A stretch of DNA of 53,606 nucleotides, taken from NCBI GenBank assembly GCA_902793995.1, contig CADBFP010000011.1:1-53606 (forward strand), in the 5' to 3' direction. The stretch is from an uncultured Lachnospiraceae bacterium. Lineage in GTDB: Bacteria; Bacillota; Clostridia; Lachnospirales; Lachnospiraceae. Below the pieces are notes generated by a model. The model saw only the letters and a list, made by a program, of their open reading frames with translations. It was not told the origin of the DNA and did no database searches. The stretch's first letter is position 1; each line of letters opens with the position of its first letter. Below are positions 291-53,606 of this stretch, piece after piece. The translations under genes and the position numbers were made by a program.

Positions 291-2097
291 ACAAAAAGAA
301 AAACCGAAATACAGCATCTGGGACAATGTCTGCTGGATGATGGACATCGCCTGGAAGGAGAAGGGAAGCGTGCCCATCGTCTGCGGGCTGATCGCCCTGG
401 CGGCGGTGGCTCTGAATTTGACGGAGCTATTTTTCGCACCCCAAATTTTAAAAAAAGTAGAAAGCGGTGCGGAGCCCGCCTCCCTGCTGCTGACCATCGC
501 CCTGTTTACCGGACTGCTGTTTTTGCTTAGGGGAATATTCATCTATCTAAGCAATTATGGTCTGATCGACAGGGTTTTCGTGCGGACAAGCATCATCGTC
601 AAGTGTAATGAAAAAACCAATACCACCTCCTATCCCAACACCTTGGATGCCCGGGTGCTGAAGCTGCGGGACAAGGCGGCGGAGGCAACGGACAGCAACG
701 ACCGCGCCAGCGAAAAAATCTGGACCACCCTTTCCACCCTGCTGACCAATCTGCTGGGCTTTATCGTCTATTTCTTTTTGCTTTCCCATCTGCCTCCGCT
801 TCTGATGCTGGTGGTGATCACCACCACCCTGCTCAGCTTTTTCATCTCCCGGAAAACCGATTCCTGGCGCTACCGCCACCGGGAGGAGGAAGCGGATTAC
901 GATAAAAAACTAATTTACATCCGGACCAAATCCGAATCCCTGGAGTTGGCCAAGGACATCCGGGTTTTAGGTCTGGCGCCCTGGCTGAAGGATCTCCATG
1001 CCAGCGTGCTGAAGCTGTATGAAAGCTTTATAAAGAAAAGCGAAAAGCAAAAGCTCCTGGGCAATCTGGCGGATGTGCTGCTGGGGATTTTGCGGAACGG
1101 CATTGCCTATTACTATTTGATCCATATGGCCCTGAACCAGAACCTTCCTGCTTCTACCTTCCTGCTGTATTTCACGGCGGTGAGCGGCTTTACTGCCTGG
1201 ATCACCGGCATTTTAAGCGAATTTGCCACCCTCCACCAGGAAAGCCTGGATTTGAATACCATACGGGAATACCTAGATGTGCCGGAACCTTTCCGTTTTG
1301 AGGGAGGAGCGCCCCTGCCGGATTTATCCACCGGCTGCGAAATCCGGCTGGAGAAGGTTTCCTTCCGCTATCCCGATACGGAAAAGGATACGATTCATGA
1401 AATGGATCTGGTGATCCGGCCCGGGGAAAAGCTGGCTCTGGTGGGCTTAAACGGCGCCGGCAAAACCACTTTGGTGAAGCTGATCTGCGGCCTTTTGGAT
1501 CCCAGCGAGGGGCGGGTGCTGTTAAACGGCAGGGATATCCGGGGCTTTAACCGACAGGAATATTATGAAATCTTTTCTACGGTCTTCCAGGATTACTCCG
1601 TGCTGGATGTATCCGTGGCGGAAAATGTGGCTTCCCGCATAGAAGACATAGACCGGGAGCGGGTGAGGGCCTGTCTGGAACAGGCGGGGCTTTTGGATAA
1701 GGTGGCAGAACTGCCCGGGGGCCTGGATCAGAAGCTGGGCCGGCAGGTCTGGGAGGAAGGGGTGGAGCTTTCCGGCGGTCAGATCCAGCGGCTGCTGCTG
1801 GCCCGGGCACTGTATCGGAACGCCCCCATCCTGCTGCTGGATGAACCCACGGCGGCGTTGGATCCTTTGGCAGAAAACGAGATCTATGTGAAATACAACG
1901 AAATGACCCGGGGAAAGACCTCCCTGTATGTGTCCCACCGCCTGGCCTCCACCCGTTTTTGCGATCGCATCATCTTTATCGCCGATGGGCAGATTGCGGA
2001 GGAGGGCAGCCACGAGGAGCTATGGCAAAAAGGCGGAAAATACGCAGAGCTTTACGAAGTGCAAAGCCGCTATTATCAGGAAGGGAGGCAGTTCTGA
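283..2097 (+). CDS. ABC exporter half-transporter, subunit 1 (permease-ATPase)
   Basis: This 604-residue protein has an N-terminal transmembrane domain (about residues 30-330) and a C-terminal nucleotide-binding domain. The Walker A motif GLNGAGKTT is at 388-396, the signature LSGGQ at 496-500, Walker B ILLLDEP at 516-522 and the switch histidine in YVSHR at 552, so this ATPase site looks complete. An upstream TTG at 250 is in frame, but the ATG at 283 has AAAGGAGG at proper spacing and is preferred. The stop codon overlaps the ATG of the next gene, which encodes a second half-transporter, so the two very likely form a heterodimeric exporter in the inner membrane. The substrate (drug, peptide or lipid) cannot be told from the sequence. 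Confidence 0.9.
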   Translation: MAAQKEKPKYSIWDNVCWMMDIAWKEKGSVPIVCGLIALAAVALNLTELFFAPQILKKVESGAEPASLLLTIALFTGLLFLLRGIFIYLSNYGLIDRVFVRTSIIVKCNEKTNTTSYPNTLDARVLKLRDKAAEATDSNDRASEKIWTTLSTLLTNLLGFIVYFFLLSHLPPLLMLVVITTTLLSFFISRKTDSWRYRHREEEADYDKKLIYIRTKSESLELAKDIRVLGLAPWLKDLHASVLKLYESFIKKSEKQKLLGNLADVLLGILRNGIAYYYLIHMALNQNLPASTFLLYFTAVSGFTAWITGILSEFATLHQESLDLNTIREYLDVPEPFRFEGGAPLPDLSTGCEIRLEKVSFRYPDTEKDTIHEMDLVIRPGEKLALVGLNGAGKTTLVKLICGLLDPSEGRVLLNGRDIRGFNRQEYYEIFSTVFQDYSVLDVSVAENVASRIEDIDRERVRACLEQAGLLDKVAELPGGLDQKLGRQVWEEGVELSGGQIQRLLLARALYRNAPILLLDEPTAALDPLAENEIYVKYNEMTRGKTSLYVSHRLASTRFCDRIIFIADGQIAEEGSHEELWQKGGKYAELYEVQSRYYQEGRQF

Positions 2098-3974
2098 TGG
2101 AGAAAAAAGAAAAGGAAATGGGTTTTTCCCAGGCCTGGAAATTGCAAAAACGGGCCATGAAGATTTTTCAGGAGCTGGACCCCTGGTATCTGCCCTCCAT
2201 TGCCCTGGAAAAGATGGTTTCCGCCGTGATTCCCTTTGTATTGGTGTTTTTTTCTGCCCGGATCCTGAATGAATTGGCGGGAGAAAGGCGGCCGGATGTC
2301 CTTTGGAAATGGGTTTGGACGGCGGTGGCGGTGGGTGGTCTGATGGCCCTGCTGAAAGCCCTGTTTACCCGCTTTCGTAGCTTGCGGGAGGGGATCTTCT
2401 ACGACAAAAGGAGTACACTTTTTGTCCATAAGCAGTTTGAGATGGATTATGCGGATGCGGAAAAAAGCGCCACCCACGAGCTACGCGCCAAAATCCGGCA
2501 ATACAATAACTTCATGGGCTTTGGTTTTTATAAGGTGTCCGGCATTTTTTCCGGTTTGGCAGAGGCCCTCACCGGCATCCTTAGCGCCGCGATCCTCTGC
2601 GTCAGTCTGTTTACAGCCCGGGTGCCGGAGAGGGGCGGGAGGCTTCAAATCCTGAACAGTCCCTGGTTTATTCTGGGGATCCTGGCTGTGATTCTGCTGA
2701 TCAGTTTGGGGACAGGGGCTCTTCACGGTCATGCAGATGGGCTCTTCGCCGCCCAGGCCGACAGGGGCACCCAGGGAAATCGTGCGTTTGCTTATTTCTT
2801 TAATCTAGGCTTTCACAAGCGGGCCATGGATATCAGAATGTATAACCAAAACGCTATTGCTGCCCATTATTTCCCCGGTCCCCGGGATGGGGCATTCGGC
2901 CCGGAGGGCTTTATGGCTAAGCTGGTGAAGGGGCGCTACAGCCTGGAGCATGGTCTAGGGGAAGGCATTTCCGCCTTGCTGACTGGGGGGATTTATGTGT
3001 TCACCTGTTTAAAGGCCCTGGGAGGCGCCTTCGGGGTGGGCTCCATCACCCAGTATGTGGGGGCGGCTACCCAGCTCTCCGGCAGCCTGGCCAAGCTGTT
3101 TTCCGGCCTGGCGGAGCTGAAAAACAACGGCAAGTTCCTGGCCATGACTTATGAATACCTGGATATCCCGAATGCCATGTACCAGGGCTCCTTGACCACG
3201 GAAAAGCGGAGCGATCGGGCTTATCAGGTGGAGTTTAAGGATGTTTCCTTCAAATATCCCGGCACGGAAACTTGGGCCCTTAGGCATGTAAATGTGAAAT
3301 TCCAAATCGGCAGCCGCATGGCCATCGTAGGGGAAAACGGCTCCGGGAAGACCACCTTCATCAAACTGCTGTGCCGCCTGTATGATCCCCAGGAAGGGGA
3401 GATCCTCTTAAACGGCATCAATATCAAAAAATATGATTACCGGGAATATATGGATATTTTCTCCATTGTTTTCCAGGATTTCCAGCTCCTGTCCCAGCCT
3501 CTGGGGGACAATGTGGCCGGGGGCAAAGAATATGATCAGGAGCGGGTGATAAAAGCCCTGGAGGATGCGGGCTTTGGGGAGCGCTTACAGACTATGCCGG
3601 AGGGGCTTAGTACCCTGCTCTACCGCCAGTATGAGGATACGGGGGTGGAGATTTCCGGGGGCGAGGCCCAGAAAATCGCCATTGCCCGGGCCCTGTACCG
3701 GAATGCGCCTTTCCTGGTGCTGGATGAGCCCACGGCGGCTCTGGATCCCATAGCGGAGGCGGAGATTTATGCCCAGCTCAATCAGATCGTGGACGACCGC
3801 ACCGCCATTTATATCAGCCACCGGCTCTCTTCCTGTCGCTTCTGTGACGAGATTCTGGTATTTGACCAGGGACAGGTGGTGCAGAGAGGAAGCCATGAGG
3901 CCCTGCTGGGAGATGGGGCAGGGAAGTATTCCGCCCTATGGAACGCCCAGGCCCAGTATTATGCAGGAACATAG
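2097..3974 (+). CDS. ABC exporter half-transporter, subunit 2 (permease-ATPase)
   Basis: This 625-residue partner of the preceding gene starts at the ATG inside the TGATG overlap, which implies translational coupling. Hydrophobic helices fill about residues 35-340. The nucleotide-binding domain has Walker A GENGSGKTT (412-420), signature ISGGE (519-523), Walker B FLVLDEP (539-545) and the H-loop YISHR. Both subunits keep canonical catalytic residues, unlike many heterodimeric exporters with one degenerate site, although the signature here ends in E rather than Q. An open frame continues upstream of 2097 but lies inside the first gene and is not expected to be translated. A terminator follows at 3982-4021. 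Confidence 0.9.
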   Translation: MEKKEKEMGFSQAWKLQKRAMKIFQELDPWYLPSIALEKMVSAVIPFVLVFFSARILNELAGERRPDVLWKWVWTAVAVGGLMALLKALFTRFRSLREGIFYDKRSTLFVHKQFEMDYADAEKSATHELRAKIRQYNNFMGFGFYKVSGIFSGLAEALTGILSAAILCVSLFTARVPERGGRLQILNSPWFILGILAVILLISLGTGALHGHADGLFAAQADRGTQGNRAFAYFFNLGFHKRAMDIRMYNQNAIAAHYFPGPRDGAFGPEGFMAKLVKGRYSLEHGLGEGISALLTGGIYVFTCLKALGGAFGVGSITQYVGAATQLSGSLAKLFSGLAELKNNGKFLAMTYEYLDIPNAMYQGSLTTEKRSDRAYQVEFKDVSFKYPGTETWALRHVNVKFQIGSRMAIVGENGSGKTTFIKLLCRLYDPQEGEILLNGINIKKYDYREYMDIFSIVFQDFQLLSQPLGDNVAGGKEYDQERVIKALEDAGFGERLQTMPEGLSTLLYRQYEDTGVEISGGEAQKIAIARALYRNAPFLVLDEPTAALDPIAEAEIYAQLNQIVDDRTAIYISHRLSSCRFCDEILVFDQGQVVQRGSHEALLGDGAGKYSALWNAQAQYYAGT

Positions 3975-5232: not shown

Positions 5233-5547
5233 ATGGCTTATACTGTGGCATACTCTCCCTTGGCCTGGCAGGATTTGCTGCGGGTGCGGGACGAGGTCTT
5301 TTCTGCCTGCCGGGATAAAGAAAGCACCGACCGATATATGAATGACTTGATGGATGCGGTGGAAGCCGTGGCAGACTTCCCTGAAATCGGATCCCCTTTG
5401 TATTACGAAAATCTCTTTACATCGTACTATCGAATTTCCTTCAGGGTTTATCTCATCTTTTACCGCCTGGAGGAAAATCGCCTTTTAGTGGAGCGTGTGC
5501 TTTACGGAAAGACGGACTATCTAAGGCTACTGTTTCCGGAGGGATGA
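5233..5547 (+). CDS. RelE/ParE-superfamily toxin
   Basis: This 104-residue protein carries the RelE/ParE layout. A first strand (YTVAYSPLAWQDL) precedes a long two-helix region containing DLMDAVEAVADFPEIGSPL. The C-terminal strands YYRISFRVYLIFYRLE and LLVERVLYGKTDYLRLL follow. The Arg-rich YRI..FRVYLIFYR strand is where RelE-type toxins place catalytic or mRNA-contact residues. It is probably a ribosome-dependent mRNA interferase or a gyrase poison; the sequence does not decide between them. It is cotranscribed with the antitoxin and ends 17 bases before the convergent S41 peptidase gene. Confidence 0.85.
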   Translation: MAYTVAYSPLAWQDLLRVRDEVFSACRDKESTDRYMNDLMDAVEAVADFPEIGSPLYYENLFTSYYRISFRVYLIFYRLEENRLLVERVLYGKTDYLRLLFPEG

Positions 5548-5564
5548 CAAGGGACATGTCCGCA

Positions 5565-6491
5565 TTATGTGTTTGCCCTATCGAAGACATCCGGCTGGAT
5601 GCCGCAGCCGATGAATTCCGTCCCGTCCAACAGGCGATAGCCTACGGAGACGATCCGTCCGCTGCCGCCGCAGCGGAGCTTGAAAAAATAGGGCGTTCCG
5701 GTGGAGCCGCCGGTGGGCTCGCCTATGAGAGTGCCCCGGCGGCTGGACTTAAACATGGCAGTAAAATCCTCGGCGGCAGAGTAAGTCCGCCGGGAGATCA
5801 GAATCTCCAGAGGCCCCTGATAGAGGGCTGTGTGGCCCTCGGCGCCGTAGCAGTCCTTATAGTGCTCGTATTTTAGGTGGTCGAGGATCAGCCTGGATTC
5901 TTCAAACTCGTCCTCCGTCATCAGTCCGGCATCGATATATTTTTGCAGCGATTCCCGGCTGCTTAAGGCCGTCTGGCTGGCGGTGGCCACTTCGTTGGCC
6001 TTGCGCAGCTGGGCCCATTTCTGACAGCCGTGAAAGAGGCCGGAGATGAAAAGCTCTGCCACCCTGGCGGAAAAAGCAGTGGTGCCGCCCCGGTTGTCCC
6101 GGATATCCAGCCGCACCAGGCGGGCGTCGGGGTGTTCCTCCAGCAGCCCCCGGACGTAAGGCGAGTGGTCGGACAGGAATTCGTTGAGCTTGATGGTCAG
6201 CACGCCCTCCTGCCAGCTATGGGAGGGGGGATCCAGCGGGTAGGATGGCTTTTCTGTCCGATAGGCCTGCGGCGGGTAGTATTCGGTGTGCCCGTCATTC
6301 AGGCTGGCCATGAACTGGAACAGGAGCTCATGAAAGCCCTTCTCGTCATCGGTGGAGAGGGCCAGAACCTTGTCCAAATACGCCAAATATTGCTCATCCC
6401 AATCGAAAGGAAGCCTGTCAAAGTAAGGAAAAATCTCCTTGACAGAGGCCCAGATGGTGGAAAGGTCATAAATCATATCTCTGCGGTTCAT
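5565..6491 (-). CDS. S41-family (tail-specific/tricorn-like) peptidase
   Basis: This 308-residue protein has an N-terminal helical segment (about 1-75) with FMASLNDGHTEYY, typical of S41 proteins. Its peptidase core contains LDIRDNRGG, a catalytic-serine segment TYSAAEDF and GEPTGGSTGTP. No signal peptide or PDZ domain is evident, so it is probably cytoplasmic. The genomic strand gives GAGGAGGG five bases before the ATG, and a consensus promoter is visible upstream (6527-6555). It belongs to the group annotated as S41 family peptidases of unknown substrate. The gene is monocistronic and convergent with the toxin-antitoxin operon. Confidence 0.85.
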   Translation of the reverse strand: MNRRDMIYDLSTIWASVKEIFPYFDRLPFDWDEQYLAYLDKVLALSTDDEKGFHELLFQFMASLNDGHTEYYPPQAYRTEKPSYPLDPPSHSWQEGVLTIKLNEFLSDHSPYVRGLLEEHPDARLVRLDIRDNRGGTTAFSARVAELFISGLFHGCQKWAQLRKANEVATASQTALSSRESLQKYIDAGLMTEDEFEESRLILDHLKYEHYKDCYGAEGHTALYQGPLEILISRRTYSAAEDFTAMFKSSRRGTLIGEPTGGSTGTPYFFKLRCGGSGRIVSVGYRLLDGTEFIGCGIQPDVFDRANT

Positions 6492-43629: not shown

Positions 43630-46600
43630 ATGAAAACAAGAAAGAGACTGTTTGCCGCTATACTCGCCCTGGTGATGATCCTCTCCACGCTGCCTGTCAG
43701 CGCCGCCGGGGAAAGTGCTCCTTCGGCTAAAGGCGCGGGCATTCCCGGCCTGAAAGAAATCAAATTATCTTCCTCACAAAAACCGAATGGAAGCTATTAT
43801 TTAGGCGATATGGGAAGGGCGACTGCGGTCTGGGAAAATGAGGCCGCAGCCAAAGACATCGTCTGGTCTGTGGAAACGCCTGACGACACGGTTGAAATTA
43901 CCATTGATCAGTCTTCGGGAGAGTTTACGGTGATGAAAGCCCAGCTGCCCCCCGGCGGGGAAGAAGGGACCGTACCATGCACCATCAAGGCCACGGCCCG
44001 GATAGACGGTACAGACTATACGGAGACCAGGGAATTGAAGGTTTACAGAAGCCATGAGCTTTCTCCGTATCGCAACTCGGGGATAGTGATAGACCGGAGA
44101 TTTTTAACCAGACCAAACAAAACCACCTACGAGACCGGTGAATATCTTGATCTGACGGGTATGGTGATTGAGTTTATATACAATGATGGAAAGAAATGGA
44201 CATCGGTCAACGGTGCCGACTGCGATTTATTGTGTGAGGGCTGGGATGAAATAGAGAAAAGACCGCTGGAGCTGACGGACAAACAGCTGGTTGTCGTCCC
44301 AGACCATCGTTTTTCCAATGTGTACTTCAATCCGATCTACATAAATATTATCGTCAATGAGGGAGTGGAACGCCCAGTGGAGCTTGATGTGGGCTCCAAC
44401 GGAACTGCTTCCGTGTCTCCCCTGTCTGCCAAGCCTGGTAGTGATATCAAAATAACAGCTGTTCCGAATGAAGGATATGTGCTTGATAAAATCACATGGA
44501 AGCCGGAGGATGGCAGCGAAAAGAACATCACGGAAAGCGCGAGCTTTACCATGCCGGCCAAAAATGCTTTCGTTAAGGTTCGGTTTAAGCCTGCCCCCCG
44601 CACGGTGCGTTTCATGGATGGGGAAGAGGTACTTTTCTCTCAAGCCGTGGAGTACGGCCACCAGGCAGCGAAGCCTGCTTCGGATCCGGAAAAGAACGGC
44701 TGGGAATTTGCAGGCTGGTACGCCGACCCGGCATGCAGCCAGGCCTTTGACTTTAATCAAGATATCAGGTCCGATACCCCTGTTTATGCAAAATTTAAAA
44801 TGCGCACCACCATGTCGATTCGTGTTCCGGATAAGCCCCTGGATGTGGAGGAGTGGATGGATGCGTATTTTACCGTCAGCCCCGATCTCAATCCTACGGA
44901 AAGGATCATACTCTTGCCCGACCTGTTCACCGTAAAGGCGGGGGATCAGGACCTGGGTTCCTTTTATGATCCCGTACGCGCCAAGCCGGAGCTTATGTGG
45001 TCCTTTACGGCCTCCGAGCTGGGAGTAGGAACCCACACCATAAGCGTCAGCTATGGGGGCAATAATAAATATACCGGGTGCAGCGGAAGCTTTACGGTCA
45101 ATGTTATCGAAAAAGAGTCGATGCAGGTGGTAGATTTTTCGCCTCAGACGGCGCCGGTAAACACGGCCTATACCGTGAGCGGCCGGATCCTGGACGAGAG
45201 CGGCAATCCCATTGCCAACAAATCCATGAGCGTTGTCAATCAGGTGGGCTACGGTGTCACCGGCAAGACGGATCAGGAGGGGCGCTTCTCCGTGGTGATG
45301 AACCGGGATATCCCCGGCGAGCACGGCAAAACCATAGAGATTAAGGTGGTTTCTTCCGCTAACGATAGCTACAAACGGCTAATCAGTCCTCATTCGATTC
45401 AATTCATTGATGGATACACTGTCAGCGTCATCGCAAACCCTGCCGAGGGCGGCACGGTTGCCGGCGGGGGCGACTATGCGGTGGGGACGGAAGTCACCGT
45501 CACGGCCACACCCAAGGAAGGCTATGTCTTCCGGTATTGGTGGGATGGGAAAAACTATAGCAACGATCCCATTTATACCTTCACCGTCATGGGGGAGATT
45601 TCCCTGATTGCATATTTTGACAAATTGGTCAATGTCAGCGTTACCGCCTCCCCTGCCGAGGGAGGCACGGTTACGGGCGGCGGCATCTATACGGCGAGCA
45701 TGGTCCCCGTCACCGCCACGGCCAATCCGGGCTATGTCTTCGCGGGCTGGTACGATGGGGATAAATTGAAGAGCTATAATGCGCGCTACGATCTACCGGT
45801 GGGATCTTCGGACAAAAATCTGACAGCCCGCTTCGTGCGCGTTGATGTGAATGTGGTCGATGAGGACGGATATCCTGTTGACACCGGGGTTTATACCGTG
45901 AGATTGATAGCTGACCAAGGCTATATATTTGGTTATTCCTACACTGGATTAATGGTTAGAGTCCAGATTGATTATCCTAGCTCTAATTGGGTGATAACCC
46001 GAATTGAGGGAGCTTATAGTTCGTTTGGAACAAATTCGGTATGGACGGATATCGTCGATGGCGGAGGCAATCAGGATTTGTATAGTGATTTAGGCAGATA
46101 TGATTTCACTATGCCGGATGGTCCTGTGACAATAACAGTGACGCTTTATTATTGGCAGCCTGATGACTTCTGGATTGCGCTGAATGCATCTCCGCGTGAA
46201 GGCGGTGACGTGTTTGGTGGTGGTAATCACTTTCTACCTGGTGAACCAGTTGAGCTAATTGCCTTTCCGAATCCCGGCTATCAGTTCGTCGGCTGGACGG
46301 AGAACGGCGAACAGGTTAGCACCGACAACCCTTACATATTCCCTGTCACCGGTTACCGAACTCTAACGGCCCGGTTCAAGCGAAAGATCACGGAGGAACA
46401 GGGCGGATTCCAAGTGCTTACGCTGGATGTGTCCGAGTTTCAAAATCATTCTTCCGATTTTGTTTACCTGTCCTACACGGAGTTCAGCGACACGGCTTAC
46501 AACAAGTCCTTTCCGCTGGATCCCTCGCAGCTGAGCCTGTCTGTGGACGGCGTCCAGTTAGCGGCGGACTACCATTTGCATGAAAGCCTGGGGCCTTGCT

Positions 46601-49600
46601 TCAAGCTGGATGGCCGCACCTTCCCGGTCGGCGAGCACAGCTTCCGGTTGCGCTGGGCGGGGGACGAAAGCTATGCCCCTCACGATAGCAATGTGTACCG
46701 GGCGACCCATAAAATGCGGGTGAGGGCGGTGTACGACAATTCCTCAGGCGTCGTCTACCGGGGGGAAGATATTGTGCTCCGCCTGCTGGAGGATCAAACC
46801 GGAACGCCGCTGAAGAACTCAGCGGTGACGCTTACCCTAAATGGTGTGGATTATACCAAAACGACAGACGAGGAAGGCTTCGCCAAACTGAATATAGATG
46901 TGGATCCTGGCGAGTATACCATCACCGCGACTTACCAGGGAGACGAGACGCACTATCCCCTGAATCAGACATATCCTGTTCAGGTCAGATGGCGGGTGCG
47001 GATGATCAAGGAATACGCAAGCCCCATATACTCGAGGCAGGGCGAGGGCCTTAAGATCCGCCTGCTGGACGATCAAAGCGGAACGCCGATAGGGAGCGGC
47101 AGGATTGTCACGTTCATGATAAACGAGGTAAAGTATGAGCGGGAAACAGACGATGAAGGCGTCGCCTTGCTGAAGATAAACCTGCCCCCCGGTGTGTATG
47201 ACGCGACCGCGTCTTACGAGGGTCAGCAGCTATCCGACACATTCGAAGTCAGGTCGCGGGTGAGGTTAGTGACCTACGACCTCGCAAAAGCATACGGCAG
47301 CCCCGATCAGTTTAAGGCAACCCTGCTGGATGATATAGACGAAACGCCGGTGGCGGGGCAGACAGTGCAGTTTAGTATTAACGGCGTGTTTTATAAAAAA
47401 GTTTCAAACGACGATGGCGTCGCCGCACTGCCTATAAGACTGTTGCCCGGTGAGTATATCATCACCACTACTTATAATGGCATTGACCGGGCCAACAGAG
47501 TCATCGTGACCGAGAGTATCTACCCGCCACAGCACCGCTATGCCGTCAGCGTCAGCATCTCCCCCGGGGAGGGCGGCCAGGTGAGCGGCGGCGGTGACTT
47601 TGCGGGGGGCGAGAGCGCAACCCTCACCGCCGCCCCGAACGAGGGCTACCGCTTTGTCGGCTGGAGCAGAGGCGGCGTACAGGTCAGCAGCGATAACCCC
47701 TATCGCTTCACCGTCACCGAAAACCGGTATCTGACGGCGGTGTTTCAGGAGCGGTCTGCCTCCTGCACCGTTAAGGCCGGCTTCGCCCCGCTGTCCCTTT
47801 CCGGCCATATCCAGGTGAGCGGTGCGGGCACATACCCGGAGGGAAGCCAGGTCACCCTCACGGCCAGTCCGGCCGGGCCGGAGAACCGGACTTTCCTGGG
47901 CTGGGTCGATAACGCCAGCAACACCATCATCAGCCGGGAGAACCCCTACCACTTCACGGTGCTGCAGGACATGAACCTGACGGCGGTGTTTGGCGCCGGC
48001 AGCGCGCCGCTTGTGACAAGCTATCCCCTCTGGATAGGCGACACGCAGGTGGATGAGGCCAACAAGGACGACATTCCCGGCGTCACCGGGGAGAATGCAA
48101 AAGCCTCCTTTGATCCTGCCACCAACACCCTGACCCTTGAAAATGTCACCGGCGTGAGCGGCAGCACCATGGGGGCGCTTATCACCGCCGAAGGGATTGA
48201 TTTGACGGTAGCGGGCAGCGCAGTCCTGGAGGATAATACCGTTGATATGGGCATCCAGGTGGCCCCCGGCAGCCTGACGCTGGAGGGTGACTTCACCATT
48301 ACGGCAGGAAGCTATGGCATTTATGTGCAGAAGAATGTAACCATGGTCGGGGGCAGGCTCTTCGCCAAAGGAGGCGCCTGCGGCATTTATTCCGCCCGGG
48401 GAGATCTGATGGTAAAGAGCGGCACGCTGGAGGCCGAGGGCAGCATGTGGGCCCTGGGGACAGCCCCCGACCTTTCCGGCTATACAGGCGAATATGAAGT
48501 CCTGGTGAAGGAGGATTACAATGCGGCGGCGGGGGCAGGCCCCTGGGACGGAGACTTTAACCGTAATCCCCTGGGCGGAAGCAGTTCTCTGTATAAATAT
48601 GTCAAAATCGCGCCCCGCAGCAGTCAGCCGGCAGAAAAATACCATATAAACATAGTGGCGCCCCCGGAGGTGACGCTGAGTTATACGGCGCTTTCCGAGG
48701 ATGGTGCCTGGGGAAATCCTAAGTATGATACACCGATTGCGGAAGCAGCAGCGGGGCAGGATGTTTTGGTGTTTGCCCAGGTGGATCAGAGTCACTATGA
48801 TTTTGAAGGTTCAGATACATTTCGGCTGCTGGGAAGTAATCAGATTCTTCAAGACTGGAACAATCCAGCCACGCACGTCTTCCTGAATTATTTTGAAATG
48901 CCCGCCAATGATGTGACCGTCGTCATTTTGCCTGTCAGAAAAACAAATGATGGAAGGGGCAGAATGGCGCGCTGCTGCATCTGGTTGGACGGGGATGAAA
49001 GTATATTGGATGAGCAGTGGATTTATGCGGAAAAAATGCCCGCGCCGGAAAAACTTGAAGACAAAACCGGCAAAGTTCCTGTAAAGGCTGATGACGCCGG
49101 CGGGAGCTATGTTTTCGATCACTGGTACTACGAGCAGGAAGGCGACTGGAGAATCACCTTTAAGCCGGTATTTAGCAGTGCCCCTGTTGGTGTGCCGTCC
49201 TGTAAGCTCTTATCAATCACAGCGGACGGCGGCACGCTGGAGCCGGCCTTCGATCCCGAAGTGACGGCCTACACCATTACGGTGCCCTACGAAACGGAAG
49301 AAATCGGACTCGTAGCGGAAGATGACAATTGTCTGAGAATCGATGAGAGCGAATGGAAGCCGAATTCACTGCAGCTTTCTTACAATCCTGTTTATCCGAC
49401 TGAGATTATCAAAGCCGAGGGCCGGATTGCGCTGGAGGTGGGTGAAAATGTGGTGCATCTGACGGCAAGCTATATAAATGGAGTGTTTGAAGAAACGGAA
49501 TACACCGTCACCATTAAGCGTGCGGCCCCGCCGCCCCGTACCGTGACTTTCCAGGTGATAAACGGCAGCTGGGAGGATGGGTCGGATAAGAAGCAGCTGA

Positions 49601-52600
49601 CGGTGCCGGAAGGCACGAAGCTGACAGCGGCGGAGATCCCGGCCGGCACGCCTGACAGCGGCTTTGGCGCGGGCACATGGGACACGGATCCCGTGGGCCA
49701 GACGGTGAGCGGCGATGTGACCTTTACCTGGACCTACAGGCACTTTAAGATCCGCTATGAGATGGTAGGGGATGCCGCCATCGGCACGCCCCCTGCGGAA
49801 AGACAGACCGAGTGGTGGGGAACCGAAAGCCGGGAGGTGCTGGGCGGCAGTGCGCTCCTTGAACGGCCCGTGATTCTGAATGAGCAGTATGACTTTGGCG
49901 GGATCTGGTACACGGATCAGGCCTGCACCCAGCAGGCAGACGGCTGGGCGGCCCTCGATGGGGATGTGACCCTCTACGGCGCATGGACGGGGCCTTATGC
50001 GGTCATCGATCAGGTGATGCTGGACTTCGTACCGCCTGTGGTGGGCGATCCTATCCCCGCCGGGCAATATTATGCCGGCGGCATGGGAGACGGCCTTCCC
50101 GAGGCGCTGGGGGTGACCCAGCCCGCTGAAATGGACGACAGGACGCTGGTTTTCTTTGCAAGCTATGAACTGGACGGCAGCGAGGGAAGCGTCTTCGAGG
50201 CCGGAAAGACTTATACGCTCCGGGTGATCCTGGGGCTGGCGGATCCCCGGACGCAGCGTTTTCAGGGACACGGAGAGGGCGAAAACTATAAGCTTTTGGT
50301 GACGGGCGCGACGGGCAGCATTGCATTTGTTGCCGGCACCCAGACGGAGGTGCAGCTGGCGGTCACGCCGGTGGAGCAGTACAGCATCAATTCCGTGGTC
50401 AATCCCTCCGAGGCCGGCAGCATCAGCTTTGCCGATGCTCAAACGGGCGGCAATGCCATCACCGCTGCCAAGGCAGGGGAAACGGTTCATATCATCCTGC
50501 CCCCGGCCGGAGGCGGCTATATGGCTTTAGATCTGGTCTGCCAGGGCGATACCAGCGGCAAAGAAGTGACTGTCGACATGTTTAAGATTAACGACAGAAT
50601 CTATCGCGCCAGCTTTATGATGCCCGAAGAGCCGGTGACGGTGACCGCAAGCTTTGTGGATATCGCCGCCCCCCGCAAGATCACGGTAGTTTGCGAGCCT
50701 GAGAGGGCCGGAACGGCCTCTGCCTCCCAGGAGGAAGGCGTGTACGGAGATATGATACGCCTTGCAGCCTCCGCCAAGGAGGGCTGGCTCTTTGATAAGT
50801 GGCAGATTGTTTCCGGCGCAGGCGCCTATCTCGTGAGTGTGTATGGCCTGGAGGGCCATGAGGAGCATCTGCGTATGGGCTACGAGGATGTGAGCCTCAA
50901 GGCATTGTTTGTGGAAGATATCCGCCCCATTGTCCATATCACTTTAGAAGCGCCGGTCTGCGGTGTGCGGCCCTCGGGAGCCGACAGCACGCCTGTCGGC
51001 TCGCCGATTTACACCTACCAGACACCCCGGCCGGAGGCCACTCTCCTGACCCAGGGATGGAGTTTCGCCACTTATGCCGAAAACGGCGAAAACTGGCTGG
51101 GATGGTCCGGCAGTTTCACAGGCTGGAGCAGTAATGTCACCTTCCAAAGCTATCCCTTTAAGGGCGGAGGAACCTACACCGTTTACGGCAAACTGATTCC
51201 CGGCGGCAGCGAAGACCTCAGCCAGGGCGTGCGGGTCTTTGCAAATGGCCGGGAGGGGGCCGCCCGGGTGAGTAGCGGCGGCATCGTATCATTTTATGTT
51301 ACGGTGGAAGCGGTCCATGACTGGGATGAGCCGCAGTATGACTGGGCCTCTGATGATTCCTCTGTTAGCGGCAAGGTTTGCTGCAGGAATGCGGCCTGCG
51401 GCGAGACCCTTCAGGAAACGGTGAATACCACCAAGCGGATTACGGCTCGGGCCACGGAGACTGCTTGCGCCGAGATGAGCTACACCGCTGTATTTACGCA
51501 GCAGCCCTTTACTACCCAGACCAAGACGGTGCTTATTCCGAAGACTCCGTTGAACCTCGGGCTTACGATTAGCGGCTGGACAGAAGGGGAGAAGGAAAGC
51601 CAGCCTCTGCTGAGCGGCAACGACGGCAATGGCGCGGTGACCTACAGCTACCGCCTGGCTGCCGACCCGGATGAGGAGGCCAGCTACAGCGACGGACTGC
51701 CCGCTGTGGCCGGGGACTATGTCCTGCGGGCCAGGGTGGCTGAGACAGTGACCCACCAGGCGGGGGAAGCTTTCGCTGCCTTCACCATTTCCCGCGCCAA
51801 GTTTACCGTGACCTATGTGGTAGAAAACGGCAGTTGGGGGGACGGCACGACCACAGTAAAGACCGAGGAAGTGGAGGAGGGGCAGAACCCTGCTCAGATT
51901 CCTACGGGTATGCTTCCCGCTGTAAATTATGAAGGAGGCAGCTGGGATACCGATCCCAGTGGGGCGGTGATTACGGACAATGCGACCTTTACATACAGCT
52001 TTACAGAGCAGAAACCGCCTGCACCGCCGAAAACCGTTTTTACTATCACCTTCGATCTGGATGGCGGTACATGGGACGGACAGACAGGAAGCGTAAGTCT
52101 GAAGGTGGAAGACGGGACGGATATCATCCTGCCGGAGCCTGAGAAAGCCGGCCATACATTTGATTATTGGGAGGGATCCCGCTATAATGCGGGAGACAGA
52201 TATACGGTGGGCGGAGATCATACCTTTACCGCCCGGTGGAAGCAGAATAGTGTAACGCCTGGCGGTGATCAGCCCGGCGGCGATCAGCCTGGTGGCGATC
52301 AGCCCGGCGGAGACCAGCCTGGCGGTGACCAGCCCGGCGGTGACCAGCCTGGTGGCGATCAACCCGGTGGTGACCAGCCCGGCGGTGACCAGCCTGGTGG
52401 CGATCAACCCGGTGGCGACCAGCCTGGCGGCGACCAGCCTGGCGGCAATGAACCCGGTGGAGACCAGCCCGGCGGTGACCAACCCGGTGGCGACCAGCCC
52501 GGCGGCAATGAACCCGGTGGCGATCAGCCTGGCGGCGATCAGCCCGGCGGTGACCAACCCGGTGGCGACCAGCCCGGCGGAGACCAGCCCGGCGGTGACC

Positions 52601-53606
52601 AACCCGGTGGCGATCAGCCTGGCGGCGATCAGCCCGGCGGAGACCAGCCCGGTGGCGACCAGCCCGGCGGGAATGAGCCCGGCGGGAATGAACCCGGCGG
52701 TAATGAGCCCGGCGGGAATGAGCCGGGCGGCAACGAACCCGGCGGTAATGAGCCCGGCGGGAATGAGCCGGGCGGCAACGAACCCGGCGGTAATGAGCCC
52801 GGCGGCGATCAGCCCGGCGGCAATGAACCCGGCGGGAATGAGCCCGGTGGCAACGAGCCTGGCGGGAATGAGCCAGGTGGCAATGAACCTGGCGGTAACG
52901 AACCCGGTGGAAACGAACCCGGCGGAAATGAGCCCGGCGGTAACGAACCCGGTGGAAACGACCCCGGCGGCAATGAACCTGGCGGGAACGAGCCCGGCGG
53001 CGATCAGCCCGGCGGCAACGAACCCGGCGGCAATGAACCCGGTGGCAATGAGCCCGACGGGAATGAGCCCGGTGGCAACGAACCCGGTGGCAACGAACCC
53101 GGTGGCAATGAGCCCGGCGGGAATGAGCCGGGCGGCAACGAACCCGGCGGGAATGAACCTGGTGGGAATGAGCCCGGCGGTAATGAGCCAGGTGGGAATG
53201 AGCCTGGCGGCAATGAACCCGGCGGCAACGAGCCAGGTGGCAATGAACCTGGCGGCAACGAACCCGGTGGAAACGAATCCGGCGGTAATGAGCCCGGCGG
53301 CAACGAGCCTGGCGGTAATGAGCCAGGTGGCAATGAACCCGGCGGTAACGAACCCGGCGGCAACGAACCTGGCGGTAATGAGCCAGGTGGCAATGAACCT
53401 GGCGGCAACGAACCCGGCGGCAATGAACCTGGCGGGAATGAGCCCGGTGGCAACGAGCCCGGTGGCAACGAACCCGGTGGCAACGAACCTGGCGGAAATG
53501 AGCCCGGCGGCAACGAACCCGGCGGTAATGAGCCGGGCGGGAACGAGCCCGGTGGGAATGAGCCCGGCGGCGACCAGCCCGGCGGCAACGAACCCGGCGG
53601 TAATGA
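43630..53606 (+). CDS. Giant secreted multidomain surface protein (3' end outside window)
   Basis: The frame is open for 9,977 bases (over 3,325 codons) to the window edge. The signal peptide is residues 1-26 (LPVSAA cleavage region). Domains seen in order are a group-3-like bacterial Ig domain (~148-247) and a GTASVSP-type repeat (~248-322). An InlB B-repeat with GWEFAGWYADP (~324-392) and Ig and carboxypeptidase-regulatory-like units (~392-594) follow. GGTVxGGGxY repeats lie at ~596, 667, 844, 1304 and 1377, with three Ig-like units at ~1031-1294. Then come a beta-helix-like region (~1462-1621), a cadherin-like sandwich (~1858-1966), more repeats, a Cys-containing HDW segment (~2558-2641), InlB-type repeats (~2726-2871) and the pentapeptide tract from 2877. 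It is probably a cell-wall adhesin; the anchor is not visible. Confidence 0.92.
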   Translation, partial: MKTRKRLFAAILALVMILSTLPVSAAGESAPSAKGAGIPGLKEIKLSSSQKPNGSYYLGDMGRATAVWENEAAAKDIVWSVETPDDTVEITIDQSSGEFTVMKAQLPPGGEEGTVPCTIKATARIDGTDYTETRELKVYRSHELSPYRNSGIVIDRRFLTRPNKTTYETGEYLDLTGMVIEFIYNDGKKWTSVNGADCDLLCEGWDEIEKRPLELTDKQLVVVPDHRFSNVYFNPIYINIIVNEGVERPVELDVGSNGTASVSPLSAKPGSDIKITAVPNEGYVLDKITWKPEDGSEKNITESASFTMPAKNAFVKVRFKPAPRTVRFMDGEEVLFSQAVEYGHQAAKPASDPEKNGWEFAGWYADPACSQAFDFNQDIRSDTPVYAKFKMRTTMSIRVPDKPLDVEEWMDAYFTVSPDLNPTERIILLPDLFTVKAGDQDLGSFYDPVRAKPELMWSFTASELGVGTHTISVSYGGNNKYTGCSGSFTVNVIEKESMQVVDFSPQTAPVNTAYTVSGRILDESGNPIANKSMSVVNQVGYGVTGKTDQEGRFSVVMNRDIPGEHGKTIEIKVVSSANDSYKRLISPHSIQFIDGYTVSVIANPAEGGTVAGGGDYAVGTEVTVTATPKEGYVFRYWWDGKNYSNDPIYTFTVMGEISLIAYFDKLVNVSVTASPAEGGTVTGGGIYTASMVPVTATANPGYVFAGWYDGDKLKSYNARYDLPVGSSDKNLTARFVRVDVNVVDEDGYPVDTGVYTVRLIADQGYIFGYSYTGLMVRVQIDYPSSNWVITRIEGAYSSFGTNSVWTDIVDGGGNQDLYSDLGRYDFTMPDGPVTITVTLYYWQPDDFWIALNASPREGGDVFGGGNHFLPGEPVELIAFPNPGYQFVGWTENGEQVSTDNPYIFPVTGYRTLTARFKRKITEEQGGFQVLTLDVSEFQNHSSDFVYLSYTEFSDTAYNKSFPLDPSQLSLSVDGVQLAADYHLHESLGPCFKLDGRTFPVGEHSFRLRWAGDESYAPHDSNVYRATHKMRVRAVYDNSSGVVYRGEDIVLRLLEDQTGTPLKNSAVTLTLNGVDYTKTTDEEGFAKLNIDVDPGEYTITATYQGDETHYPLNQTYPVQVRWRVRMIKEYASPIYSRQGEGLKIRLLDDQSGTPIGSGRIVTFMINEVKYERETDDEGVALLKINLPPGVYDATASYEGQQLSDTFEVRSRVRLVTYDLAKAYGSPDQFKATLLDDIDETPVAGQTVQFSINGVFYKKVSNDDGVAALPIRLLPGEYIITTTYNGIDRANRVIVTESIYPPQHRYAVSVSISPGEGGQVSGGGDFAGGESATLTAAPNEGYRFVGWSRGGVQVSSDNPYRFTVTENRYLTAVFQERSASCTVKAGFAPLSLSGHIQVSGAGTYPEGSQVTLTASPAGPENRTFLGWVDNASNTIISRENPYHFTVLQDMNLTAVFGAGSAPLVTSYPLWIGDTQVDEANKDDIPGVTGENAKASFDPATNTLTLENVTGVSGSTMGALITAEGIDLTVAGSAVLEDNTVDMGIQVAPGSLTLEGDFTITAGSYGIYVQKNVTMVGGRLFAKGGACGIYSARGDLMVKSGTLEAEGSMWALGTAPDLSGYTGEYEVLVKEDYNAAAGAGPWDGDFNRNPLGGSSSLYKYVKIAPRSSQPAEKYHINIVAPPEVTLSYTALSEDGAWGNPKYDTPIAEAAAGQDVLVFAQVDQSHYDFEGSDTFRLLGSNQILQDWNNPATHVFLNYFEMPANDVTVVILPVRKTNDGRGRMARCCIWLDGDESILDEQWIYAEKMPAPEKLEDKTGKVPVKADDAGGSYVFDHWYYEQEGDWRITFKPVFSSAPVGVPSCKLLSITADGGTLEPAFDPEVTAYTITVPYETEEIGLVAEDDNCLRIDESEWKPNSLQLSYNPVYPTEIIKAEGRIALEVGENVVHLTASYINGVFEETEYTVTIKRAAPPPRTVTFQVINGSWEDGSDKKQLTVPEGTKLTAAEIPAGTPDSGFGAGTWDTDPVGQTVSGDVTFTWTYRHFKIRYEMVGDAAIGTPPAERQTEWWGTESREVLGGSALLERPVILNEQYDFGGIWYTDQACTQQADGWAALDGDVTLYGAWTGPYAVIDQVMLDFVPPVVGDPIPAGQYYAGGMGDGLPEALGVTQPAEMDDRTLVFFASYELDGSEGSVFEAGKTYTLRVILGLADPRTQRFQGHGEGENYKLLVTGATGSIAFVAGTQTEVQLAVTPVEQYSINSVVNPSEAGSISFADAQTGGNAITAAKAGETVHIILPPAGGGYMALDLVCQGDTSGKEVTVDMFKINDRIYRASFMMPEEPVTVTASFVDIAAPRKITVVCEPERAGTASASQEEGVYGDMIRLAASAKEGWLFDKWQIVSGAGAYLVSVYGLEGHEEHLRMGYEDVSLKALFVEDIRPIVHITLEAPVCGVRPSGADSTPVGSPIYTYQTPRPEATLLTQGWSFATYAENGENWLGWSGSFTGWSSNVTFQSYPFKGGGTYTVYGKLIPGGSEDLSQGVRVFANGREGAARVSSGGIVSFYVTVEAVHDWDEPQYDWASDDSSVSGKVCCRNAACGETLQETVNTTKRITARATETACAEMSYTAVFTQQPFTTQTKTVLIPKTPLNLGLTISGWTEGEKESQPLLSGNDGNGAVTYSYRLAADPDEEASYSDGLPAVAGDYVLRARVAETVTHQAGEAFAAFTISRAKFTVTYVVENGSWGDGTTTVKTEEVEEGQNPAQIPTGMLPAVNYEGGSWDTDPSGAVITDNATFTYSFTEQKPPAPPKTVFTITFDLDGGTWDGQTGSVSLKVEDGTDIILPEPEKAGHTFDYWEGSRYNAGDRYTVGGDHTFTARWKQNSVTPGGDQPGGDQPGGDQPGGDQPGGDQPGGDQPGGDQPGGDQPGGDQPGGDQPGGDQPGGDQPGGNEPGGDQPGGDQPGGDQPGGNEPGGDQPGGDQPGGDQPGGDQPGGDQPGGDQPGGDQPGGDQPGGDQPGGDQPGGNEPGGNEPGGNEPGGNEPGGNEPGGNEPGGNEPGGNEPGGNEPGGDQPGGNEPGGNEPGGNEPGGNEPGGNEPGGNEPGGNEPGGNEPGGNEPGGNDPGGNEPGGNEPGGDQPGGNEPGGNEPGGNEPDGNEPGGNEPGGNEPGGNEPGGNEPGGNEPGGNEPGGNEPGGNEPGGNEPGGNEPGGNEPGGNEPGGNEPGGNESGGNEPGGNEPGGNEPGGNEPGGNEPGGNEPGGNEPGGNEPGGNEPGGNEPGGNEPGGNEPGGNEPGGNEPGGNEPGGNEPGGNEPGGNEPGGNEPGGDQPGGNEPGGN
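45841..46200 (+). other. AT-richer patch inside the giant gene
   Basis: Codons such as TTA, AGA, ATA and AGT are frequent here and rare elsewhere in the gene. The segment lies between two GGxVxGGG repeats and has no recognisable domain. It could be a recently acquired insert. Confidence 0.4.
52258..53606 (+). repeat. 15-base tandem repeat encoding P-G-G-D-Q / P-G-G-N-E units
   Basis: Eighty-nine complete units (52,261-53,595) and one partial unit follow each other without a single insertion or deletion. By direct reading 28 units are GGDQP and 60 are GGNEP or near variants (DGNEP once, GGNES once); one is GGNDP. Glycine and proline third positions vary freely. DQ units fill the first ~24 positions with few exceptions, and NE units dominate afterwards. 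The tract is still running at the window edge. Confidence 0.97.

Follow-up and report, generated by a model that had tools for sequence, protein, structure and literature searches.

A PGG(D/N)(Q/E) pentapeptide tract, probably a wall-spanning spacer, in a giant surface protein of an uncultured Lachnospiraceae bacterium

Contig C11 of the genome studied here (G000) stops inside a long run of five-residue repeats at the end of a giant open reading frame. What does such a tract do, and how does the protein that carries it end? The window, that is, the whole stretch of DNA analysed, is the entire contig of 53,606 bases, so the protein has been cut by the assembly and not by biology. With a probability of about 0.73, we read the tract as a disordered Pro/Gly spacer that spans the wall in a sortase-type protein and acts as the Pro/Gly-rich stalk of Aap does. 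The disorder, the crossing of the wall, the cleavage and the union of C11 with a second contig, C8, in one gene are parts that we infer. The features of the window are as follows.

43630–53606, plus strand: giant surface protein, 3325 residues to the contig end, 3' end open (ORF list and translation)
43630–43710, plus strand: N-terminal signal-peptide-like stretch (translation read by eye)
43711–52257, plus strand: ectodomain of beta-type repeats (Pfam)
52039–52233, plus strand: last Pfam module before the tract, a Listeria-Bacteroides repeat, PF09479 (Pfam, E 1e-8)
52258–53606, plus strand: pentapeptide tract PGG(D/N)(Q/E), 89 complete units and a partial PGGN
52258–52662, plus strand: DQ-rich block of 27 units, 25 of them PGGDQ (unit string)
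52663–53602, plus strand: NE-rich block of 62 units, 56 PGGNE, 3 PGGDQ and 3 variants (unit string)

The ectodomain is built from repeat modules. Pfam identifies six Flg_new_2 stretches (divergent InlB B-repeat), two Flg_new stretches (Listeria-Bacteroides repeat), Big_3_5, Cadherin-like PF12733 and others, and Ig-like repeats are present. The PF09479 match that precedes the tract comprises residues 284–348 of the searched ectodomain piece 8. No PDB sequence matched the ectodomain at E≤0.01. Searches of 61 genomes with the middle region and with the last domains found no orthologue of the whole protein. The middle region matched in seven genomes (own included; best other E 6.4e-13) and the last domains in 11 (own included). 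A near-mode search of phage records gave no match for 51700–53606. The first-pass annotation had described a giant surface protein with a long stalk-like tract. This fits the sequence, with 3325 residues in the window, an N-terminus that looks like a signal peptide by eye and the tract itself. Its "adhesive domains" found no support: the InlB-B-like, Listeria-Bacteroides-like and Ig-like repeats have neither a PDB sequence match nor a demonstrated ligand.

The first PGG codon of the tract lies at nt 52258, in the frame of the ORF that starts at 43630. The last base of unit 89 is 53592, and the remainder to the contig end reads PGGN. Over its 449 residues, the tract contains no indel and no change of register, and direct in-frame reading from nt 52258 reproduced the 89 consecutive units in constant register that had been claimed at first sight. 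These are 58 PGGNE, 28 PGGDQ, and one each of PGGND, PDGNE and SGGNE. Tandem Repeats Finder resolves the region into 30- and 45-bp arrays with 0% indels. When the residues of the tract were shuffled 2000 times, runs of PGG(D/N)(E/Q) never exceeded two units. The GC fraction is 0.70 in the tract and 0.56 in the remainder of the ORF. Exactly one acidic residue is found in 88 of the 89 units, and the net charge is −90 per 449 residues. The D-Q and the N-E units each carry one acid and one amide, and the intermediates D-E and N-Q do not occur among the 89 units, but C8 has two D-E and one N-Q. A collagen-like Gly-X-Y repeat, which has a period of three, is rejected by the period of five in all 89 units, and the earlier statement that the tract is not collagen is confirmed. 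Elastin-like pentapeptides have the form VPGXG with hydrophobic residues; the tract, which reads (E/Q)PGG(N/D) in that register, has no hydrophobic residue other than Pro. Extensin (PF02095) was rejected as well, at 38.3 bits for the window and 27.9 bits for the C8 part against a curated cut-off of 105. Two plus and two minus frames are free of stops across 52258–53606, and the long overlapping ORFs listed at the tract are thus probably by-products of the 15-bp repeat.

The codons of the units drift while the peptide stays nearly constant. There are 43 distinct 15-mers among the 89 units, and 180 of the 238 differences from the consensus unit fall on third bases, in agreement with the first impression of third-base drift under a constant protein. 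Over all pairs of units, pS is 0.704 and pN is 0.083, giving pN/pS of 0.118; in the PGG columns alone, the ratio is 0.014. Most of pN comes from the switch between D-Q and N-E, and pN is 0 within the DQ units. The units are related by descent, and these figures are therefore descriptive, with counts that are not independent. They support the selection on the protein that had been suggested for the tract. The other possibility is a neutral minisatellite, grown by slippage, in frame by chance and without a role. The tract is indeed a 15-bp tandem array, and neighbouring units resemble each other slightly more than in shuffled order (0.792; 300 shuffles gave a mean of 0.766 and a maximum of 0.794). 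Unit number also differs between close homologues in two other bacteria, both Lachnospiraceae: the proteins at L074 3726–4961 and L086 5038–7104 share 87% identity over 343 residues, yet the former has at least 11 PGGNE-type units and the latter four, which shows that the length of these arrays can differ among close relatives, albeit in a protein other than this one. Against neutrality, synonymous sites vary while the protein is kept, and a neutral array would lose its pattern. We regard this explanation as very improbable.

The glycine codons show a further bias. In all 112 Gly cases across the two tracts scored (window 52258–53606 and L025, about 5275–5645), the first Gly of the unit is encoded by GGC or GGT; one unit has GAC there. 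At the second Gly, all four codons are used, with GGG before Asp in 0 of 42 cases. Neither tract contains a G run longer than three. In 14 ORF stretches of the window, the ectodomain included, GGG or GGA make up 37% of 68 Gly codons that stand before Gly. The bias may arise because G runs or Shine-Dalgarno-like GGAGG are avoided, and it could also go back to descent from one founder unit.

Does the protein continue beyond the contig? The own genome assembly has 64 contigs and is 93% complete. The DNA of the tract is found in it at two places only, the window tract and C8:63270–63643 on the minus strand. C8 is 63644 bases long, so that both tracts lie at contig ends, and their orientation is complementary. 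The frame on C8 holds 24 further units (12 PGGDQ, 7 PGGNE, 2 PGGDE, and one each of PGGND, PGGNQ and PGGSD), 21 of which have exactly one acidic residue. The units are followed by PTQEAPTQEAPTQEDPTQNMPGKSIPAMGDGNSLTKWIALMSISLLGLAVIWPGTDKKESKRRSR and a stop. The order in this frame is units, PTQEA-type repeats, IPAMGD, a hydrophobic stretch, a basic tail and the stop, with 28 residues (GGSDPTQEA...GKS) between the regular tract and IPAMGD. We conclude that the end of C8 is very probably the missing C-terminus of the window protein, with an unassembled gap in between. Taken together, C11 and C8 amount to at least 113 units, at least 569 tract residues and at least 3514 protein residues, excluding the inter-contig gap; the contig ends do not overlap, and these totals are minimum values.

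The join itself is one that we infer, because the two ends share no overlap (the longest exact stretch in common is 26 bp) and no read or relative spans from C11 to C8. One gene is the simplest reading and is not proven. Two different proteins with similar tracts would place the end of the window protein elsewhere. Besides the ends without overlap, the composition of the units speaks for this, since the C8 units are looser (2 DE, 1 NQ, 1 ND and 1 SD of 24), as does the occurrence of similar tracts in unrelated proteins elsewhere. Such an arrangement would, however, need two further lost contigs. Only two matches come out of the DNA search; one has no 3' end and the other no 5' end, and they agree in frame and orientation. 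The other rows of the own-genome protein search with the tract add no third candidate: the six rows are C11, C8, three strand or frame echoes and one match on C12 (34% identity, E 2.1e-9), where another protein carries the pentad ATQPA instead. We consider two separate proteins quite improbable. The first-pass annotation had expected the tract to run past the window and had proposed to look there for LPXTG, SLH or a further domain. The continuation is borne out by the C8 units, and an LPXTG-like end is present as the variant IPAMGD, in what is very probably the same gene. The downstream sequence has been recovered in part: it lies in the same assembly, and the unassembled gap remains.

The surroundings of the two loci were also inspected. 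The gene next to the C8 frame is a creatininase (PF02633), followed by an ABC transporter set as read by eye. Relatives of the creatininase occur in three of the 15 other genomes of the genus (50, 31 and 32% identity) and gave no synteny across the join. In the 621-residue frame on C12 (L110, around 2045–2281), similar domains recur, and besides the ATQPA linker there is a long stretch rich in Ala, Glu and Ser.

Provided that C8 and C11 form one gene, the window protein closes with a tail that fits a sortase signal. The C8 frame closes with the motif, a hydrophobic stretch and a basic tail (IPAMGD...WIALMSISLLGLAVIWPGTDKKESKRRSR). The letters are not those of canonical LPXTG, as IPAMG has Ile for Leu and Met for Thr. 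We aligned this tail with eight C-termini that a scan demanding P-x-x-G had picked out in five other genomes of the genus, and P and G are thus constant by construction. Position four of the motif varies among T, S, M and V. G is followed by D in eight of the nine tails and by E in the other, where the scan pattern left seven letters possible. A profile of these tails, searched against the own genome, gave 11 matches at E up to 10, and ten of them (the C8 tail included) are C-termini of frames with xPx(T/S/M)GD, a hydrophobic stretch and a charged tail. Eight of these ten have E below 1e-5, and the remaining two have 0.011 and 0.84. The match at L120 is not a C-terminal sortase-type tail. The nine other tails read APDTGD (three times), PPDTGD, APDSGD, LPDTGD, YPDSGD (in a 63-residue frame), APEMGD (E 0.011) and PPETGD (E 0.84). 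They are located at L112–L119 and L121, on contigs C1, C22, C29, C36, C53, C37, C45, C7 and C15, and three of them lie in open frames of more than 1000 residues. Eight of the nine are preceded by acidic or Pro/Thr-rich linkers, which span 53 to 273 residues in the six that were measured (L118, L119 and L121 left out). The PGG tract hence sits where other such proteins of this genome carry a different low-complexity linker. Against a sortase signal speaks that the last 72 residues, used as query, find only weak matches among the 15 other genomes of the genus (best E 3.2e-4).

A sortase-type anchor would need a sortase. A search of the own genome with PF04203 gave no match at E≤0.001. At a laxer limit, only two matches appear genome-wide, on C17 (E 0.005) and on C20 (E 1.9, at chance level), both away from the tract gene. 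The first of these is the following ORF.

Contig C17 of G000 (L106), 1273–2328, minus strand: divergent class B sortase, 351-aa ORF (TIGR03064 and PDB matches)

It matches TIGR03064 with E 8.6e-44 and 149.6 bits (curated cut-off 153.75) and PF04203 with 22.1 bits (cut-off 26.6). Falling narrowly under the NCBIfam and Pfam cut-offs, it might be overlooked by cut-off-based annotation. At E≤0.001, 15 distinct PDB sequences match, most of them named sortase B; the best are 5jcv ("Lmo2181 protein", 7.4e-25) and 2oqw (5.2e-24). A His (YGHKMKDGSMFG), which we take to be an active-site residue, a Cys (LWTCAYY) and an Arg (DGRMFI) are aligned with them. In two papers (PMC4155245, PMC5118464), Cys and Arg are active-site residues of sortases. 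Judged by sequence, the genome has a predicted class B sortase that scores slightly below both curated cut-offs. For comparison, 84 of 98 genomes match PF04203 at E≤1 and 76 of the 98 score above its cut-off; all 16 genomes of the genus are among the 84.

Would this enzyme cut IPAMGD? In Clostridium difficile (PMC4155245), the only sortase belongs to class B; it cleaves (S/P)PXTG at the T-G bond, and LPETG peptides are not cut by this SrtB. In a modelled complex of the same enzyme (PMC5118464), the catalytic Arg bonds to the Thr hydroxyl. With Met and not Thr at position four, cleavage of IPAMGD may therefore be poor, and this Met is a real weakness of the sortase reading. A plain transmembrane anchor would leave IPAMGD uncut and keep the protein in the membrane, with the tract as a tether across the wall. 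It would agree with the Met, with the scores of the sortase and its distance from the gene, and with two proteins of the genus (L053, L060) that lack the motif but close with a hydrophobic stretch and a charged tail. The nine other C-termini with xPx(T/S/M)GD in this genome argue against it, in part by construction of the profile. So do the D or E after G, which the scan pattern did not require, and the recurrence of Met at the same position in L119 of the own genome and, in one relative, in L006 and L061. On balance, we think a plain membrane anchor unlikely. Because the constancy of P and G is by construction, it is rated slightly higher, and the sortase-type spacer slightly lower, than the alignment would otherwise suggest.

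No PDB sequence matched the tract at E≤1. A single-sequence AlphaFold model of 150 tract residues has no secondary structure and low confidence throughout (mean pLDDT 42). With one Pro and two Gly per five residues and one acid per unit, a flexible charged coil is favoured. We estimated its dimensions as a worm-like chain of 597 residues from the start of the tract to IPAMGD, with the unassembled gap excluded and with assumed parameters. The result is 13 to 21 nm for a persistence length between 0.4 and 1.0 nm, and some 215 nm when fully stretched; these dimensions suggest crossing of the wall rather than a rigid mast. An ordered rod (polyproline II or beta-spiral), which the first-pass annotation had put forward as its inference, or a self-associating material that glues cells, would be consistent with Pro-Gly turns that recur regularly at intervals of five residues. 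In Staphylococcus epidermidis Aap, the Pro/Gly-rich region (PGR) is likewise described as an extended stalk that resists compaction (PMC8406310 and PMC10618399, citing Yarawsky et al. 2017). The two adjacent Gly in each unit, the single Pro per five residues, the charge on nearly every unit, the absence of hydrophobic residues and the lack of a PDB sequence match at the above limit all speak against order, and we hold a rod or glue to be distinctly unlikely.

The disordered spacer has parallels among known stalks. In Aap, the repeat unit is the hexapeptide AEPGKP and the PGR is about 135 residues long; the window protein has the pentapeptide PGG(D/N)(Q/E), each unit carrying a single net negative charge, and no fewer than 569 tract residues are assembled. 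In Aap, the Pro/Gly-rich tract lies beside the sortase motif (PMC8406310, PMC10618399), and the same is found here, at 28 residues, if C8 and C11 are joined. The R region of clumping factor and Sdr proteins is likewise a low-complexity acidic repeat that leads from the ligand domains to the wall anchor (PMC4850167, PMC8360574); it consists of Ser-Asp dipeptides with no Pro or Gly, whereas the window tract is PGGxx. The title of Hartford 1997 calls the R-region repeat required for functional surface expression. Periscope proteins also have a repeat stalk, possibly of variable length, that adjoins a C-terminal wall anchor (PMC9704523). The repeats described there are folded tandem domains of about 50–165 residues with highly identical DNA, in contrast to the five-residue units of the window with 43 DNA forms among 89. 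The window tract belongs to an already known type of Pro/Gly spacer; what this case adds is evidence at the codon level and a probable anchor end.

Since an anchoring tail of the sortase type very probably follows soon after the tract, the latter is most likely a flexible, negatively charged wall spacer. In the mechanism that we propose, the giant protein would be secreted and its C-terminal tail of IPAMGD, hydrophobic stretch and basic residues held at the membrane. The tail would then be cut and linked to peptidoglycan by the predicted class B sortase. At least 113 PGG(D/N)(Q/E) units would cross the wall as a soluble, flexible and disordered chain with about one negative charge per five residues, and some 2,850 residues of repeat domains would be presented outside. 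Selection would maintain composition, charge and register, and not codons, while unit number would probably be altered by slippage or recombination. A bolder version, an "unfolded periscope", would make the tract a polyanion in which the spacing of charges itself is selected, the D-Q and N-E units are interchangeable isosteres and a fast change of unit number tunes the reach. We consider this version doubtful. If even charge spacing does matter, it would offer a simple design rule for wall-crossing linkers. The locus is a long and clean natural Pro/Gly spacer (at least 113 units and 569 residues assembled) with a strong codon-level sign of selection on the peptide. It also illustrates that a repeat tract can break an assembly and hide the anchor end of a large surface protein, the probable anchor being on a different contig.

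No description of the tract was found in the searched open-licence literature (titles and starts of abstracts, among the matches listed). Similar PGG pentads occur in unrelated bacteria. A scan of genome contigs with the tract gave 15 loci, ten of which (L074, L075, L076, L077, L079, L080, L081, L082, L084 and L086) have by eye at least three PGG(D/N)(Q/E/T)-like units in a plausible frame. At L074, there are 11 PGGNE, and the contig ends inside the tract. The tract follows a lipobox-like Cys in L075 (Bacteroidales) and L082 (Clostridia), and the pentads precede a C-terminal anchor-like tail in L076 (Saccharibacteria) and L081 (Pumilibacter), all as read by eye. A family search at E≤1e-15 found seven of 299 genomes, own included. 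Among the six others, only G107 has PGG units, 17 PGG(N/D/T)T in all (L087), carried by a fragment with an LPKTG tail at its end; the other five have different Pro pentads or a PGEGEPGNEK-type repeat. The PGGNE, PGGDQ and PGGNT linkers found elsewhere, L087 included, are thus of the same pentad kind as the window tract, but count 3 to 17 units as assembled, in otherwise different proteins, against at least 113 in the window protein with C8. The genus search with the tract gave matches at E≤0.001 in 11 of 16 genomes, own included. The genus loci displayed contain no long PGG tract; they have other pentads, linkers rich in T, E and P (ATEPP, TEAPTEAPTE) and some short PGG-like runs (L039), and several rows are in a wrong frame. 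Of the 15 loci in the contig scan, L072, L078, L083 and L085 differ from PGG pentads, and L073 is probably in the wrong frame, its long ORF reading PAETS. At L073 (3888–5390 and 5141–5392), one 15-bp array can be read as PAETS if the long frame is followed and, on that strand too, as GGDQP in a different frame, so that pentad matches can be frame echoes.
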